Shown here: in pieces, positions 31,212 to 61,105 of the stretch
Numbering within the stretch: position 1 is the stretch's first letter
Layout: every line of letters begins with the position of its first letter
Translations under genes and position numbers: made by a program
Notes under the pieces: model-generated
Told to the model about the DNA's origin: nothing
Seen by the model: the letters and a program-made list of their open reading frames with translations, nothing else
Database searches by the model: none
From: Chloroflexota bacterium
Lineage (GTDB): Bacteria; Chloroflexota; Dormibacteria; Dormibacterales; Dormibacteraceae
Direction of reading: 5' to 3'
Length of the DNA stretch: 61,277 nucleotides
Assembly (NCBI GenBank): GCA_005881275.1
Contig: VBEF01000021.1
Coordinates: 1-61,277 of the forward strand

Positions 31212-32597
31212 CTACAGCAGCTCTCGGACGTCGACAAGGTGCCCGGTGATCGCCGCCGCCGCCGCCATCGGCGGGCTCATCAGGTGCGTGCGTCCGCCTG
31301 AGCCCTGGCGCCCCTCGAAGTTGCGATTCGAGGTCGACGCGCACCGCTCGCCTGGGGCCAAGATGTCCGGGTTCATGCCCAGACACATCGAGCACCCCGC
31401 GTTGCGCCACTCAAAGCCGGCGGCTTTGAACACGAGGTCCAGGCCTTCCTCTTCCGCGGCGCGCTTGACCGACGTCGAGCCGGGGACGACCATAGCGCGA
31501 ACTTTCGGATGCACGCGGCGACCCTGGATCACCCCCGCGGCGGCGCGCAAGTCTTCGAGGCGCGCGTTGGTGCACGAGCCGATGAAGACGCGGTCGATGG
31601 CGATGTCAGCCAGTGCGGTTCCAGGCAGCAAGTCCATGTAGCGCAGGGCTCGCTCGTCGGTTTCCGAGCGCGGCGACGGCACGCGTCCTGTGACCGGCAC
31701 GACCTGAGCCGGAGTCGTGCCCCACGTCACGTGCGGTTCGAGCTTCGATGCGTCGAGCTCGATCACGCCGTCGAACTTCGCGTCCTGATCGGAGGCCAGC
31801 GAGCGCCAGTACTCGAGCGCCTTCTCCCAGGCAGCGCCTTTCGGCGCGTGGGGCTTGCCTTCCACATAAGAGAAGGTCGTGTCGTCCGGCGCCACCATCC
31901 CGGCCTTGGCGCCCCACTCGATAGACATGTTGCAGATGGTCATGCGGCCCTCCATCGAAAGGCCGCGGATCGTCGGGCCGCGGTACTCGACCAGGTGGCC
32001 CTGACCGGCCGACGTGCCCGTCCGGCCGATCAGACCGAGCACGATGTCCTTGGCGGTGACGCCCAGCGGCAGCTCGCCCTCGACGTTGACCGCGCGGTCG
32101 CCCTGCCGCTTCTGGGGGAGGCACTGGGTGGCGAGCACAAGCTCCACCTCGGAGGTCCCGATCCCGAAAGCCAGCGCCCCGAACGCGCCGTGCGTCGACG
32201 TGTGCGAGTCGCCGCAGACGATCAGCATCCCCGGCTGGGTCAGGCCCAGCTCGGGCCCGATCACGTGGACGATCCCCTGTCGCCGGCTGCCGATCTGATG
32301 CAGCGGGATGCCTTCCCGCCGGCAGTTCTCGGCCAGCACCTCCATCTGCTTCCGTGACAGGTCGTCGGCCGCCCGGACGCCCCCGCGGGTGGGAACGTTG
32401 TGGTCCATCGTCGCCACCGACAGATCCGGCCGCCGGACCTTGCGCCCGGCCAGCCTCAAACCCTCGAACGCCTGGGGCGAGGTCACCTCGTGGACGAGGT
32501 GCAGGTCGACGAAAAGCAGGTCCGGCTCGCCTTCCGCGGTACGGACCACATGGGCGTTCCACAACTTCTGGGCGAGGGTCTTGGCCTGGTTTGGCAT
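31212..32597 (-). CDS. leuC: 3-isopropylmalate dehydratase large subunit
   Basis: 461-residue aconitase-family subunit with the [4Fe-4S] ligands Cys342 ([10 protein letters not shown]), Cys402 and Cys405 ([11 protein letters not shown]), and substrate motifs [21 protein letters not shown] and [14 protein letters not shown] 32597 is where LeuC similarity starts; the open frame continues upstream through the regulatory region of the divergent ilv operon and is not coding there. A TAAAGT -10-like box on the minus strand (32614-32609) ends 11 bp before the ATG with no ribosome site, so the leader is only a few bases long. Confidence 0.96.
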
Positions 32598-32635
32598 CGG
32601 GAACGACAACTTTACGCACCACCAGGGCCGGAAAT

Positions 32636-32652
32636 TTGTGCCCTGGGCACAA
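32636..32652. promoter_or_regulatory. 17-bp dyad between leuC and the ilv leader
   Basis: TTGTGCCC and GGGCACAA form a perfect 8-bp inverted repeat around a single T. It lies between the leuC promoter region and the start of the ilv leader peptide (32691), so a repressor bound here could control both directions. The bound protein cannot be named from the sequence. Confidence 0.5.
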
Positions 32653-32690
32653 TCCGAACCGGGGTCTGGCTCGTTAACATCAACAACCTC

Positions 32691-32774
32691 ATGGCACAGC
32701 CATCGCGCCTGTTCGTACTCCTCCTTGGACTCCTGGGCCTTATTGGCATCCAAACGGGGGCACGCGCGAACTAG
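32691..32774 (+). CDS. ilv leader peptide (27 residues, rich in Leu/Ile/Val codons)
   Basis: An ATG is followed by 26 sense codons and TAG. Codons 7-20 read [14 protein letters not shown]: seven Leu, two Ile and one Val in fourteen codons. It is followed after 23 bp by an intrinsic terminator and then ilvB, which is the classical order for transcription attenuation by ribosome stalling. The sequence GGGGGC inside codons 22-24 (32756-32761) is identical to the 3' arm of the terminator. A TAACAT box at 32674-32679 may be the -10. Actinobacterial ilvB leaders are known to work this way; this peptide itself I do not recognise. Confidence 0.85.
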
Positions 32775-32797
32775 CCAGAACCGCAAGATAGATCGCA

Positions 32798-32835
32798 AAA
32801 GCCCCCGACCGAAAGGCGGGGGCTTTCTCATTTTT
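32798..32835 (+). terminator. Attenuator terminator of the ilvBNC-leuA-pheA operon
   Basis: AAAGCCCCC (32798-32806) pairs with GGGGGCTTT (32818-32826), with an 11-nt loop, followed by CTCATTTTT. The alternative antiterminator is visible: CGGGGGC at 32755-32761, inside the leader peptide gene, is perfectly complementary to GCCCCCG at 32801-32807 (7 bp). A ribosome stalled on the Leu/Ile codons would leave CGGGGGC free to block the terminator. A ribosome that reaches the stop at 32774 would cover it and let transcription stop. Confidence 0.85.
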
Positions 32836-32859
32836 GAAGCAATAGGAGCCCGCCAAACC

Positions 32860-34545
32860 TTGACCGGAGCCGACATGATCCTGGAAGCGCTGGAGCGCGA
32901 AGGTGTCGAGTACATCTTTGGCTACCCGGGTGGCGCCAACCTGCCGATCTACCAACACCTGCCCGAGCACCCCAACCTCAAGCACATCCTGGTCCGCCAT
33001 GAGCAGGGCGCCGCGCACATGGCCGACGGCTACGCCCGCGCCTCGGGCAAGCCGGGAGTCGTGTTCGCCACGTCCGGTCCGGGCGCCCTGAACCTGGTCA
33101 CGGGACTCTGCACCGCCTACATGGACTCGGTGCCGATGATCGCCATCACCGGGCAGGTCGTCAGCACCCAGGTTGGGCGCGACGCGTTCCAGGAATCGGA
33201 CGTCATCGGCGCGACCAGCTCCGTCACCAAGCACAGCTACCTCGTGACCAGGATCGACCAGCTGCCTCGCGTCATCCACGAGGCGTTCCACATCGCCACC
33301 ACCGGCCGGCCGGGTCCCGTCCTGATCGATATCTGCAAGGACGTCCAGCAGGCCGATGCGGAGCGCATCACCCCGCAATACCTGGATCTCCCCGGCTACA
33401 AGCTGAACGGTCACGTCAACCTCGACCAGGCGCGGCAGGCCGCCCAGGCGCTGGCCGGAGCCGAACGACCGGTGATCCTCGCCGGGCATGGCGTCCTCCT
33501 GAGCCATGCGGAGCGGGAGCTGATGCAGTTGTCTGAGGCGGCGGCCGCCCCCGTAGGGACGACGCTCCTCGGCATCGGCGCGTTCCCGGTCAAGCACCCG
33601 CTGTCGCTGCACATGACCGGTTTCATGGGTACGGGCTGGTGCCTGAAAGCGGTCCAGAACGCGGACGTTTTGATGATGGTCGGCATGCGGGTCGACGACC
33701 GAGTCACCGCGAAGCTCTCCGAGTTTGCGCCCAACGTCAAGACGTTCATCCACGTCGACATCGACGAGTCCGAGATGGGGAAGAACGTGCGGCCTCACAT
33801 CGAGCTGGTCGCCGACGCGAGGCTGGCGCTCGAGGCGATGCTGCCTCACGTCGGCAAGGTCCAGGCGGACCGTGGCAATTGGCTGGCTCAGATCGACGAG
33901 TGGCGCGAGGAGCATCCGCTTCGCTACAGGCACTCGAACGGACAGCTCCAGCCTCAGGACGTGCTGATCGACATGTATCGCCGCGCCAAGAGCGAGGCGA
34001 TCGTTGTCGCCGACGTCGGCCAGAACCAGATCTGGGCCGCCCTCTGGTGGAACTACGACCGACCGGGCCTGTTCATCAACTCGGGTGGCTCGGGCACGAT
34101 GGGTTTCGCGCTGCCGGCCGCGATCGGCGCCAAGTTCGGCCGGCCTGACCTTCCGGTCTGGTGCGTCGCGGGCGAGGGCGGCTTTGTGATGACAGCGCAG
34201 GAGCTGTCGGTCGCGGTCGAGCACCAGCTCGACGTCAAGATCGTTCTCCTCAACAACTTCTCGCTGGGCATGGTCCGCCAGTTCCAGGACGACTTCTATG
34301 GCGGAGTGCGCTCCCAGGTCGATCTGACCCACATGCCTGACTTCGTGAAGCTTTGCGAGGCATACGGCCTGCCCGCACTTCGGGTCGAGAAGTTTGAGGA
34401 CATCGCGCCGTCCTTCGACGCCGCGGAGCGCACGAAGGGTCCGTTCCTGATCGACTTCCGCATCGACCCCGAGGCCAACGTCTACCCGATCGTCCCGCTC
34501 GGCAAGGGCCTCAACGAGTTCCGGGAGGCCCCTGAATATGCTTGA
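32860..34545 (+). CDS. ilvB: Acetolactate synthase large subunit
   Basis: ThDP-dependent enzyme making acetolactate and acetohydroxybutyrate, the first common step of branched-chain synthesis. About 561 residues: [18 protein letters not shown] (FAD/ThDP domain), catalytic Glu in [26 protein letters not shown], and the ThDP diphosphate motif [12 protein letters not shown] with [16 protein letters not shown] 32860 keeps the conserved LTGADMI start. ATG 32875, which has GGAG five bases before it, is an alternative that loses only five residues. It lies 25 bp after the attenuator and overlaps ilvN by 8 bp. Confidence 0.96.
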
Positions 34546-35056
34546 GATGAAGCCGAAACCAGCGGCCGCTCCGCTCCCCGTGAAGGGGAAGGAGACCAGG
34601 ATCCGTGTCCTCTCATTGCTTGTCGAGGACGGGCAGAACACGCTGACCAAGGTCTCGGGTGTGATCCGGCGTCGTGGTTTCCACGTCCGCGGGATCTCCG
34701 TCGGCCCGAGCCGGCAGCCCGGCCGTTCGCGGATCACGCTGCAGATCGACCACGGCCACGCCGAGGCCGATCAGGTGCGCAAGCAGCTCGAGCGGCTGGT
34801 CGAGGTCGTCGAGGTCGAGGACCTGACAGGCGACGAGGTGCACAGCCGTGAGCTGATCGTCGCCAAGGTTGCGGCCTCCGAGCTCGAGGCGCTGCTGCAG
34901 CGAGGCGCGAAGGTTCTGTCGACGGGGCCGGATGGCACGACGGTCGAGTTTTCCGGCGATGCCGATGAGGTTGGCGATTTCGTCAACGAGCTGGCGCGGC
35001 ACGGCATTGTCGAGGTCGTTCGCTCGGGGCCCGTGGTGATGAGGAGAACCGAATGA
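34538..35056 (+). CDS. ilvN: Acetolactate synthase small (regulatory) subunit
   Basis: 172 residues with an N-terminal ACT domain ([20 protein letters not shown], then [15 protein letters not shown]) and the C-terminal ALS_ss_C domain ([16 protein letters not shown]). It activates IlvB and confers valine feedback inhibition. The N-terminal 16 residues before the ACT domain are unstructured and Pro/Ala/Lys-rich. It overlaps ilvB by 8 bp and ilvC by 4 bp (ATGA), so the three products are co-translated. Confidence 0.95.
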
Positions 35057-36045
35057 AGATCCACTACGAAGTCGACCTGCCGCAGCGGCTGGGCGAGCCT
35101 GTGGCGGTGATCGGCTACGGCAGCCAGGGTCGCGCGCACGCGTTGAACCTGCACGACAGCGGCGAGGACGTTCGCGTCGGTCTGTACCCCGGAAGCAAGT
35201 CGATCGAGCGCGTGGAGGCCGACGGCCTGCGGGCGGTACCTGTGCCCGAGGCGGTATCGGAAGCCTCGGTCGTCATGGTCCTGACGCCGGACGCGGGCCA
35301 GGGCAAGCTGTTCCGCGAGTCGATCGAGGCTCACCTCCAGCCGCGCTCGATGCTGATGTTCGCGCACGGCTTCGCGATCCACTTCGCGCAGATCAAGCCC
35401 AACCAGGACATCGACGTCGCGATGATCGCGCCGAAGGGCCCTGGCCACCTCGTGCGCAGCACGTACGTCGCCGGCCAGGGCGTGCCGGCGCTGATCGCGG
35501 TGCACCAGGACGCCACCGGTCATGCGTGGCAACGGGCCATGGCCTACGCGCGCGCGCTCGGCGCGGGCCGCGCCGGAATCCTCGAGACCACGTTCAAGGA
35601 AGAGACCGAAACCGACCTCTTCGGCGAGCAGGCGGTGCTGTGCGGTGGCGTGGCGTCGCTCGTGAAGACGGGTTTCGAGACGCTCGTCGAGGCCGGCTAC
35701 CAGCCCGAGCTCGCGTACTTCGAGGTCCTGCACGAGCTGAAGCTCATCGTCGACCTGATGTATCGGGGCGGGCTCGGCTTCATGCGCTACTCGGTTTCCG
35801 ACACCGCCGAGTACGGCGATTACGTGTCTGGGCCGCGTGTCATCGACGACCACGTGCGGCAGTCGATGCGCAAGGTGTTGGCCGAGATCCAGGACGGCAG
35901 TTTTGCCGAGCGCTGGCTCGATGAAAACTCGAACGGTCGCGAGAACTTCATGGCCATGCGCAAGAAGGACGCGGACCACCAGATCGAGCAGGTCGGGCGT
36001 GAGCTGCGCTCGATGATGACGTGGTTGGAGCCAGTGGAGAAATGA
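35053..36045 (+). CDS. ilvC: Ketol-acid reductoisomerase, class I
   Basis: Isomerises and reduces acetolactate. 330 residues, normal for class I: Rossmann loop [19 protein letters not shown], cofactor loop [10 protein letters not shown] (Ser/Lys/Ser pattern suggests NADPH), and C-terminal knotted domain with [19 protein letters not shown] and [17 protein letters not shown] holding the Mg2+ ligands. The start codon overlaps the ilvN stop (ATGA), and its stop overlaps leuA in the same way. Confidence 0.96.
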
Positions 36046-37301
36046 AAGACGTGAACCCGGACCGAGTATTCATCTTCGACACGACGCTGCGCGACGGCGA
36101 GCAGTCTCCTGGCTTCCACCTCGACGCGAACTCCAAGCTTCGCATCGCGCGCCAGCTGGAAAAGCTTGGCGTGGACGTGATCGAAGCCGGGTTCCCGATC
36201 TCTTCCCCAGGTGACTTCGAGGCGTGCCGGCGCATCGCGCGCGAGATCCGCGGCGCGACGGTCACCGCGCTGGCGCGCGCCGTGAAAGAGGACATCGACG
36301 CGGTCTGGGGGGCGATCAAGGAGGCGGAGAACCCGCAGATCCACATCGTGCTTTCAGTTTCGGACGTCCACATCAACCGCAAGCTAGGCATGTCTCGCGA
36401 GCAGGTCCTGAAGCGCGGCGCCGAGATGGTCGCGTACGCGCGGACGCTCTGCGACAACGTCGAGTACTCGCCGGAAGACGCCGGGCGCGCCGACATCGAC
36501 TACCTGGTCGAGACGGTCGAGACGATGATCGCGGCCGGGGCCAACGTCATCAACATCCCCGACACCACCGGCTACTGCTTGCCTTACGAGTTCGGCGAGA
36601 TCGTGCGTCGCGCCATCAAGGACGCGCGGGGCAGCGACAAGGCGCTCTTCTCGGTGCACTGCCACAACGACCTCGGCCTGGCCGTCGCCAACACGCTGGC
36701 CGCGATCTCGGCCGGCGCTCGGCGCGTCGAATGCACCGTCAACGGCATCGGTGAGCGGGCCGGCAACACGTCGCTCGAGGAGATCGTGATGCTGCTCAAC
36801 GTGCGCCAGGCGAAGCTTGGCCTCGAGTGCGGTGTCAACACGACTGAGATCACTCGCACGTCGCGTCTTGTCTCTGAGCTGACCGGCACGCCCGTGCAGC
36901 CGAACAAGGCTGTGGTCGGGGCCAACGCCTTCGCCCATGCGTCCGGTATCCACCAGGACGGCGTGCTGAAGGACCGCCTGAACTACGAGATCATGAAGCC
37001 GGAAGACGTCGGCCTTTCCGACTCCCGCATCGTGCTCACGGCTCGCTCCGGTCGCCACGCCTTCCACCACCGTCTCGGCCGGCTCGGCATCACGCTCACG
37101 GATGGCAACGACGACGCGGCGTGGCAGCGATTCCTCCAGCTGGCTGACACGAAGAAGGAAGTCACCGATGAGGACCTGCGGAAGATCGCCGCGATGTCAG
37201 AGACCAACGGTCATGAGGGCAACGGCCACCCGCCGGTGACGGACCAGCTGAACGATCACAACCACGTCGCGGACACGCTCCGACACCTGATTTTCGGGTG
37301 A
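36042..37301 (+). CDS. leuA: 2-isopropylmalate synthase lacking the C-terminal leucine-binding domain
   Basis: Condenses acetyl-CoA with ketoisovalerate, the first committed step to leucine. The catalytic TIM barrel is complete: [17 protein letters not shown], then [34 protein letters not shown], and [17 protein letters not shown]. So is the linker with [18 protein letters not shown] and [10 protein letters not shown]. But the protein is only 419 residues and ends in a short His/Asn-rich tail. The LeuA_dimer allosteric domain that takes E. coli LeuA to about 520 is absent. The stop overlaps pheA (GTGA), so this is the native end and not a window or assembly truncation. Homocitrate or citramalate synthase activity is a less likely alternative given its operon. 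Confidence 0.93.
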
Positions 37302-38116
37302 AGGTTGCCTACCAGGGCGAGCCTGGGGCGTACTCGGACGAGGCCGTCTCGGCGCTCTTTCCGGACGCCCAGGCTGTCGGCTTTCCGACTTTCCGCCTGA
37401 CGTTCGACGCGCTCGCGATGGGTGCGGTCGAGGCTGCCGTGCTGCCCGTGGAGAACAGCAGTGCGGGCGTCGTGCAGGAGGTGTCGGACCTCCTGTGGGA
37501 GCTGCCTGGCCTGCGCGTCGTCCGAGAGCATGTGCAGCCGGTGCGCCACTGCTTGCTTGGATGGCCGGGGCCGGTGGAGCGCGCGCTGTCGCATCCGCAG
37601 GCGCTCGCGCAGTGCGACCGCTACCTGCACTCGCGACAGATCCGCTCGGTCGCGTATCACGACACCGCCGGCGCGGCCCGGGCCGTCGCCGAGCAGCGGC
37701 AGCCCGGCACGGCGGCGATCGCGAGCAAGGCCGCTGCCGCGCGCTACGGGCTCTACGTGCTGGCCGAGTCGATCCAGGACGACTCTGAAAACCGCACCCG
37801 GTTTGTGGTGGTCGAAAAGGGAAGCCCGTCCCGACCCCGCGAGGCGAGCTCGGGATGGAAGGGATCGATCGCCTTCGTGACCGCCCACCGTCCGGGCAGC
37901 CTGGCGCACGCGCTGGACTGCTTCGCGCAGCGTGGCGTCAACCTGACGCGGCTGGACAGCCGGCCGATGATGGGGCGGCCGTTCGAGTACCGGTTCTATC
38001 TGGACTTTTCGATCAACGGCGAGGCTTCATCACCGGCCGCGGCCGAGGCGGCGTTGAGCGACCTGGAAGAGGCGAGCGCGGAGATCAAGCTGTTCGGGAC
38101 GTACCCCTCGGCTTAG
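37298..38116 (+). CDS. pheA: Prephenate dehydratase with ACT domain
   Basis: Converts prephenate to phenylpyruvate for phenylalanine. 272 residues: VAYQGEPGAYSDEAVSALFP at the N-terminus, VLPVENSSAGVVQEVSDLL, the catalytic Thr in SENRTRFVVVEK, then a C-terminal ACT domain (FVTAHRPGSLAHALDCF, RLDSRPMMGRPFEYRFYLDF) for Phe feedback. No chorismate mutase domain is fused. GTG 37298 overlaps the leuA TGA, so an aromatic gene is translationally tied to the branched-chain operon and should fall under the same attenuator. Confidence 0.95.
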   Translation: MKVAYQGEPGAYSDEAVSALFPDAQAVGFPTFRLTFDALAMGAVEAAVLPVENSSAGVVQEVSDLLWELPGLRVVREHVQPVRHCLLGWPGPVERALSHPQALAQCDRYLHSRQIRSVAYHDTAGAARAVAEQRQPGTAAIASKAAAARYGLYVLAESIQDDSENRTRFVVVEKGSPSRPREASSGWKGSIAFVTAHRPGSLAHALDCFAQRGVNLTRLDSRPMMGRPFEYRFYLDFSINGEASSPAAAEAALSDLEEASAEIKLFGTYPSA

Positions 38117-61029: not shown

Positions 61030-61105
61030 GGGCGGCTAGCTCAGTTGGAAGAGCGCCAGCTTGACATGCTGGAGGTCGGGGGTTCGAAACCCTCGCCGCC
61101 CACCA
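61030..61105 (+). tRNA. tRNA-Val(GAC)
   Basis: Complete cloverleaf: acceptor GGGCGGC/GCCGCCC, D-arm GCTC/GAGC, anticodon stem CCAGC/GCTGG with loop TTGACAT (anticodon GAC, 61063-61065), variable loop AGGTC, T-arm GGGGG/CCCTC with TTCGAAA. Discriminator A is followed by an encoded CCA (61103-61105). A TACAAT box at 60994-60999 may be its -10, giving a 5' leader of about 24 nt. Confidence 0.96.

Follow-up and report, generated by a model that had tools for sequence, protein, structure and literature searches.

A probable leaderless Leu/Ile/Val leader-peptide attenuator before the ilvB operon of Dormibacteraceae, with T-box-like leaders at the same slot elsewhere in the class

The ilvB gene of a Dormibacteraceae genome is preceded by a Leu/Ile/Val-rich reading frame and a GC-rich hairpin, which raises the question of whether the two form a ribosome-mediated attenuator of the operon, as a sequence-only reading had proposed, and how far among related bacteria such an element extends. 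The window, i.e., the whole stretch of DNA analysed (61,277 nucleotides, contig VBEF01000021.1 of assembly GCA_005881275.1), belongs to a MAG of 2.94 Mb in 127 contigs from the Dormibacteria, soil bacteria about which little is known. Leaving aside one relative at 59%, the 16 best relatives of its IlvB are 73–95% identical and by title are mostly Candidatus Dormiibacterota, Dormibacteraeota or Chloroflexi, including Candidatus Dormiibacter inghamiae.

On the plus strand, ilvB (acetolactate synthase large subunit, 32860–34545, TIGR00118 above cutoff) is followed by ilvN (acetolactate synthase small subunit, 34538–35056, Pfam ACT_5 and ALS_ss_C), ilvC (ketol-acid reductoisomerase, 35053–36045, Pfam KARI_N and KARI_C), leuA (2-isopropylmalate synthase, 36021–37301, NF002086 above cutoff, start at GTG 36021 or ATG 36042) and pheA (prephenate dehydratase, 37298–38116, Pfam PDT, NF008865 above cutoff). 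These five genes had been taken for one operon, and they do appear as one: neighbouring genes are joined via short overlaps (4 bases for leuA/pheA), and of 10 family loci examined, 6 carry pheA as part of the operon, two are without it (L014, L017) and two end before the place where it could be seen (L005, L012). In genera g5, g12 and g14 (L201–L203), ilvC is separate from the operon and pheA lies beside that ilvC. The ilvB start is probably TTG 32860, with the Shine-Dalgarno sequence AGGAG at 32844–32848; leuC and leuD are encoded on the opposite (minus) strand, divergent from ilvB.

The leader ORF occupies 32691–32774 on the plus strand. It has 27 codons, and ten Leu, Ile or Val codons, including the rare GTA, CTT and ATT, fall within codons 7–20 (32709–32750), exactly as had been claimed. 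The terminator hairpin AAAGCCCCCG-ACCGAAAGG-CGGGGGCTTT spans 32798–32826 (−22.0 kcal/mol) and with its T-rich tail reaches 32835; the hairpin is where it had been placed, but the T-tract is broken (TTTCTCATTTTT). The 7-bp alternative pairing of CGGGGGC (32755–32761) with GCCCCCG (32801–32807) is also present, but the antiterminator is longer than had been thought, about 14 bp. Helix I of region 2 is CGGGGGC, inside the leader ORF, and helix II is GCGA.CUA (32766–32773), which overlaps the leader stop codon; GCGA (32766–32769) pairs with TCGC (32793–32796) and CTA (32771–32773) with TAG (32789–32791). Region 3 (32789–32807) consists of UAG.UCGC and GCCCCCG, the latter being also the 5′ arm of the terminator. 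The longer antiterminator and the probable leaderless start described below had been overlooked by the earlier reader.

The antiterminator fold of the window has −22.6 kcal/mol, compared with −22.0 kcal/mol for the terminator, and none of 300 shuffles matched it when the terminator arm was fixed and the preceding stretch shuffled. For the whole 166-nt leader, the advantage in folding over shuffled sequence is only moderate (z −2.1, with 8 of 200 shuffles equal or better). A crude architecture screen of both strands of the window gave eight matches, among which this locus is top in two respects, Leu/Ile/Val density (9 in 12 residues versus 6–8 in the others) and terminator energy (−22.0 versus −12.4 to −19.5 kcal/mol). 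A simple consensus scanner run over 32300–33100 found neither a sigma-70-like nor a terminator-like site; the broken T-run, the length of the loop and a poor −35 probably account for this.

Among the 42 family genomes examined, 35 have IlvB at E 1e-200 or better, and one more has it at 4e-180. Three of these 35 are without usable upstream DNA (L088, L102 and L107, contig ends) and one is masked (L125); the other 31 gave 30 distinct upstream regions with leader ORFs, the region of L097 being identical to that of L096. L139 and L141 also have leaders and stand outside the 30 counted. All 30 contain a leader ORF of 21–29 codons, a terminator and an antiterminator fold, and Leu/Ile/Val codons, whose conservation had been named as a check of the proposal, are kept in every one, 6–13 per leader. 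The terminator hairpins (30 of 30) range from −16.4 to −37.5 kcal/mol, a T-rich tail having been demanded by the search, and in any sequence at most 18 of 300 shuffles were as good as the antiterminator. Exact matching recovered the pairing from 22 of the 28 family regions searched; the distant members L103, L104, L105, L108, L110 and L111 have a bulge or mismatch in the helices and give no exact match. Their leaders and those of L122–L124 were chosen by eye, and where there were several in-frame starts, we took the one at the common place.

An RNAalifold consensus and a first covariance model (R1) on that structure proved to be of no use and were replaced by model R2, built from the 30 family leaders using the antiterminator structure; it matches 37 of the 42 family genomes at E 2e-5 or better, a figure that is partly circular. 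Weak matches of this model (L142–L147, L150, L152) were set aside, and eight such loci were inspected. Among these loci, an operon-protein search gave matches only at L142, LeuC-/LeuD-like ones (28–32% identity), and the candidate leader there is not Leu/Ile/Val-rich. At L144 (G023:C152:12827–12909), a Leu/Ile/Val-rich short ORF and then a strong terminator precede an unidentified gene, which may be either chance or another attenuator. A match in G106 of family f3 (G106:C428:4918–5008, E 5e-24) is probable contamination and was left uncounted, because the leader is closely like that of genus g1 (L140 versus L089), the contig is 5 kb long and the genome is listed with 6% contamination.

The arms of the antiterminator were compared in two alignments. 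In the structure-blind A1 (27 sequences), 89.4% of antiterminator cells are paired, versus 34–45% after sliding by 1–3 columns, and five pairs are changed on both sides, a number reached by 3 of 500 shuffles. In the shorter A2 (30 sequences, 29 distinct rows), 89.4% are again paired, and the four pairs changed on both sides are not unusual (89 of 500 shuffles). The terminator shows no clear co-variation, with three such pairs in A1 (60 of 500) and one in A2 (451 of 500), and RNAalifold on A1 found neither the antiterminator nor the 1:2 hairpin discussed below.

Since distant members are misaligned by one base in A2, an alignment-free partner-swap test was made, comparing native and swapped duplex energies for one genome per genus (12 genera) in ten samplings of 5000 permutations. 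Per 5000, the native pairing was equalled or beaten 2–32 times for regions 2 and 3, 0 times for regions 3 and 4, and 1–34 times for regions 1 and 2, compared with 349–2415 and 1121–4137 times in the controls (region 1 with 3 and with 4), all these figures taking the genera as unrelated and leaving base composition uncorrected. The unproposed pairing of regions 2 and 4 was also somewhat favoured (21–268 of 5000), presumably because both match region 3. Overall, the comparisons support matched changes in the antiterminator arms between genera; the conservation of the alternative pairing, which had also been named as a check, is thus found, less clearly on A2.

The 1:2 hairpin, in the window TCGCGC (32703–32708, a tentative region 1) with GCGCGA (32764–32769), appears in 30 of 30 folds with at least four pairs between the two regions in each. 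When codons 2–10 were shuffled, 76% of shuffles reached at least four pairs and 40% folded at least as well. Folding thus lends the hairpin no support, and with partner swap alone favouring it, we treat it as tentative.

Codon choice in the 30 leaders, from 30 genomes, differs from that in 15 ORFs of the window (6209 codons). GTA makes up 59% of Val codons in leaders versus 2% in the ORFs, ATT 76% versus 3.8% of Ile codons, and CTT 34% versus 8.2% of Leu codons. Region 2 draws on the last Gly codon of the leader, and all 30 leaders have GGG there, compared with 18.5% of Gly codons in the ORFs. In the 21 closest leaders, variation at codon positions 1, 2 and 3 is 0.19, 0.13 and 0.26, and the gaps within their alignment are whole codons. 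The conserved bases of the leader region are those of the codons and of the pairing arms.

These data bear on the alternative that a constitutive terminator fixes the ilv level and that the ORF beside it is incidental, encoding a small membrane or signal-like peptide. By eye, the peptide does resemble a hydrophobic helix with an AxA-like end, and translation of the leader is itself a prediction. Such a peptide would account neither for the conservation of region 2 and of the helix that it forms with region 3, nor for Leu/Ile/Val codons being rare ones and the pairing Gly codon being always GGG; moreover, other families of the class keep the Leu/Ile/Val codons and the terminator while the C-terminus of the peptide differs. 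We regard this explanation as very unlikely, although it survives better than the two considered below.

A Shine-Dalgarno match of at least four bases was found in none of the 30 leaders, compared with 25 of 30 ilvB genes. The window has the −10-like hexamer TAACAT at 32675–32680 on the plus strand, and in 29 of 30 leaders TANNNT is spaced 9–12 nt upstream of the start codon; in the exception, L112, it is 15 nt before the ATG or 9 nt before a GTG in the same frame. Chance alone would place such a hexamer in about a fifth to a quarter of search windows of this size, so it is the regular spacing, not mere presence, that carries the argument. Transcription usually starts 6–8 nt past a −10 hexamer, which would leave a 5′ leader only a few bases long. 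The leader is probably translated leaderless, with its start codon at or next to the 5′ end of the RNA. In four of five family-f4 stretches, a TTGAC + TATACC pair was seen by eye upstream of a TTG start.

With no Shine-Dalgarno sequence and, in 29 of 30 leaders, a start codon near the probable 5′ end, attenuation could also be real and sense mainly ribosome loading at that end, i.e., general translation stress, and the 1:2 hairpin, if real, would terminate transcription on failed loading. Against this speak the conservation and rarity of the Leu/Ile/Val codons just 5′ of region 2, and the triplet CUC seen by eye at the specifier place in two T-box-like leaders of this slot, and we consider it less likely again than an incidental ORF.

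In the Rfam search of the window, T-box (RF00230) gave no match at gathering score, its motif and sub-gathering matches being confined to other lineages, and neither did Leu, Thr, Trp and His leaders, ilvB-OMG or the ppGpp riboswitch, all of them families that we take to be included in the library searched. Least likely of all is a riboswitch that senses tRNA or a metabolite, whether T-box, ppGpp class or another, and has no need of translation: T-box-like leaders do occupy the same slot in some sister genera, and some ilv genes elsewhere have a ppGpp riboswitch upstream (PMC10272879, in the text available), but in the window Rfam recognises at gathering score nothing except a tRNA at 61030, only 26 nt separate the stop codon of the leader from the GC stem, and the conserved bases are codons and pairing arms.

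Two observations concern the divergent side of the locus. On the minus strand, TAAAGT lies 11 nt before the ATG of leuC (32595–32614, by eye), and the leuC of the window seems to be leaderless too. Between the divergent leuCD and ilvB leader promoters lies a dyad, TTTGTGCCCTGGGCACAA (32635–32652), whose halves TTTGTGCCC-GGGCACAA are 20–22 nt from each −10-like hexamer; it is a candidate activator or repressor site, and a TTTGT-N-AC form near this place is kept in 28 of 30 family leaders.

We put the probability that the element is a ribosome-mediated transcription attenuator of Leu/Ile/Val type, probably leaderless, at roughly 0.88. In the mechanism that we infer, from transcription start and leader translation through stalling and termination to the control of pheA, RNA polymerase would start a few bases 5′ of the leader ATG, and a ribosome, with no Shine-Dalgarno sequence present, would load at the RNA 5′ end or directly beside it. 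With ample charged Leu-, Val- and Ile-tRNA, it would reach the stop codon and cover region 2 (codons 22–28), and the 3:4 terminator would form ahead of ilvB. With charged tRNA scarce, it would stall at codons 7–18, the rare GTA, CTT and ATT included, and region 2 would be free to pair with region 3 over about 14 bp, which would block the terminator and allow ilvB-ilvN-ilvC-leuA-pheA to be transcribed. Taking a ribosome footprint of ~26 nt around the stalled codon, as given in the available part of PMC13236596, stalls at codons 7 to 17 or 18 would leave region 2 free, and a ribosome at the stop codon would cover helix II and the end of helix I. When the leader is untranslated, pairing of region 1 with region 2 may leave the terminator free to form, a step that is tentative.

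The attenuator mechanism itself is of an already known kind and is well supported by sequence comparison. The ilvBN, ilvGMEDA and leuABCD attenuators of E. coli share the four-region logic and rare control codons with the window element, and differ in that their leaders are Shine-Dalgarno-initiated and have other sequences. In Corynebacterium glutamicum, according to the accessible text of PMC11857589 and PMC10272879, ilvBNC (ilvL; ilvB-II motif) has a similar arrangement of branched-chain leader, terminator and overlapping antiterminator before ilvB, with GUA and CUU among its control codons, whereas the leader has 15 aa, the sequence and lineage are other, and the operon as described there is ilvBNC without leuA and pheA. 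Transcription starts there one nucleotide from the leader ATG (PMC11857589, same portion), and thus the leaderless start is not new in kind. The excerpt of PMC13236596 describes, before ilvB1NC of Mycobacterium tuberculosis, a branched-chain uORF, an antiterminator masked by the ribosome at the stop codon and an intrinsic terminator upstream of ilvB1, but with a shorter regulatory codon run (LVVI) and a three-gene ilvB1-ilvN-ilvC operon. Actinobacterial ilvB leaders likewise have short Ile/Val/Leu ORFs and terminators upstream of ilvB; in the part of PMC1262725 at hand, these ORFs run into the terminators and how regulation works is called unclear, and the LEU element of actinobacterial leuA differs in being a pseudoknot. 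In Sinorhizobium meliloti trpL, the attenuator RNA also begins with the leader ATG, although the amino acid is Trp and a 14-aa peptide acts in trans (PMC7298713, as far as its available text goes). Our search, which covered part of the literature, found no earlier report of leader-peptide attenuation in Dormibacter or this class.

In a survey of 110 genomes of the class, IlvB was found at E 1e-150 or better in 71, of which 36 belong to the family and 35 do not. Confinement of the attenuator to the family, an impression from only 290 nt upstream of ilvB, was dropped because up to 1000 nt upstream revealed leader attenuators in other families, behind a small ORF. The 35 non-family regions comprise 28 leader attenuators, five T-box-like leaders and two that are too short (L160, L174). 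An automatic screen for leader, terminator and antiterminator passed 26 of the 35, versus 3 of 140 shuffles and 4 of 35 reverse strands, and two attenuators were recognised by eye, L119 (poorer leader) and L161 (terminator partly masked). A T-box motif stands instead of the attenuator in L113, L116, L117, L155 and L156, which score 34–52 bits against RF00230 (E-values of 5e-5 to 3e-9), short of the 93 bits set as its gathering score; in the two of these T-box-like leaders aligned by eye, the specifier-place triplet CUC is that of leucine. Among 59 further ilvB loci (L023–L081, ~47–51% identity, mostly titled as other groups, 58 with at least 200 nt upstream), the screen accepts five, and a T-box motif is present in four.

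Outside the family, an ORF of ~62 residues lies between attenuator and ilvB (L114:547–735, L118, L119, L120), and in family f3 another small ORF fills that slot (L113:239–424). Pfam gave no match for the three of these small ORFs that were searched, and an assignment of the f3 ORF as CopG-like was given up on the same result. A candidate attenuator before the separate ilvC-pheA of three genera was not supported, terminators being present without a convincing leader. In these loci (L201, L202 and L203, from g5, g12 and g14), a short conserved CACCCTCTTCGCGACG-type stretch lies directly before the terminator upstream of ilvC-pheA, with no clear leader ORF; this type of stretch is also found in L108.

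The element was met before a different enzyme as well. In genera g3 and g9, neither IlvB at 1e-150 nor IlvN was found in 3 of 3 genomes (71–88% complete); three genus-g1 MAGs are likewise without IlvB at 1e-150, one of them also without ilvC and ilvN, and since MAGs are incomplete, such absence is weak by itself. In g3/g9, leader attenuators precede leuA in two genomes (L134, L137) and a ThDP enzyme of ~590 residues in 3 of 3 (L178–L180). This divergent enzyme (L135:621–2393; L178–L197) carries all three TPP-enzyme domains, and its scores against the acetolactate synthase models listed fall far short of their cutoffs. It occurs in 22 of 110 class genomes, of which 16 belong to family f3, none of these 16 having IlvB at 1e-150. 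All 14 f3 loci with upstream DNA have a small ORF before the enzyme gene and ilvC after it, while a T-box motif stands upstream in 13 of them and leuA downstream in 10; six of six f3 loci match the Rfam T-box model below gathering (30.6–50.1 bits). One f3 genome (G046) has the T-box and the same small ORF before a true IlvB (L113), and in three genomes keeping IlvB, the ThDP enzyme is without such a leader (L181–L183). The regulatory element thus follows function rather than gene, which points to the ThDP enzyme as a candidate replacement for IlvB and IlvN, i.e., an unrecognised acetohydroxyacid synthase, as judged from context. We consider it somewhat more probable than an even chance that in Dormibacteria a leaderless Leu/Ile/Val leader and a leucine T-box are interchangeable at this slot, both standing also before a ThDP enzyme that replaces IlvB/IlvN as an acetohydroxyacid synthase without regulatory subunit.

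The LeuA of the window (426 aa) is matched by long 2-isopropylmalate synthase models only to about position 380–386 of 494–523, and a Pfam search at E 0.001 found no C-terminal regulatory domain, so the leucine-binding domain seems to be absent and attenuation may be a main leucine feedback. The leaders hold 0–2 Phe codons each, and pheA would therefore follow the branched-chain supply, under the control of branched-chain aminoacyl-tRNA.

Taken together, the analysis widens the range of leader-peptide attenuation, here with a probably leaderless start, by a class for which we found no such report. More interesting than the attenuator as such are its exchange with T-box-like leaders and the connection to a candidate replacement enzyme. 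One class, with the same operon behind either a leader peptide or a T-box-like leader, offers a natural experiment.
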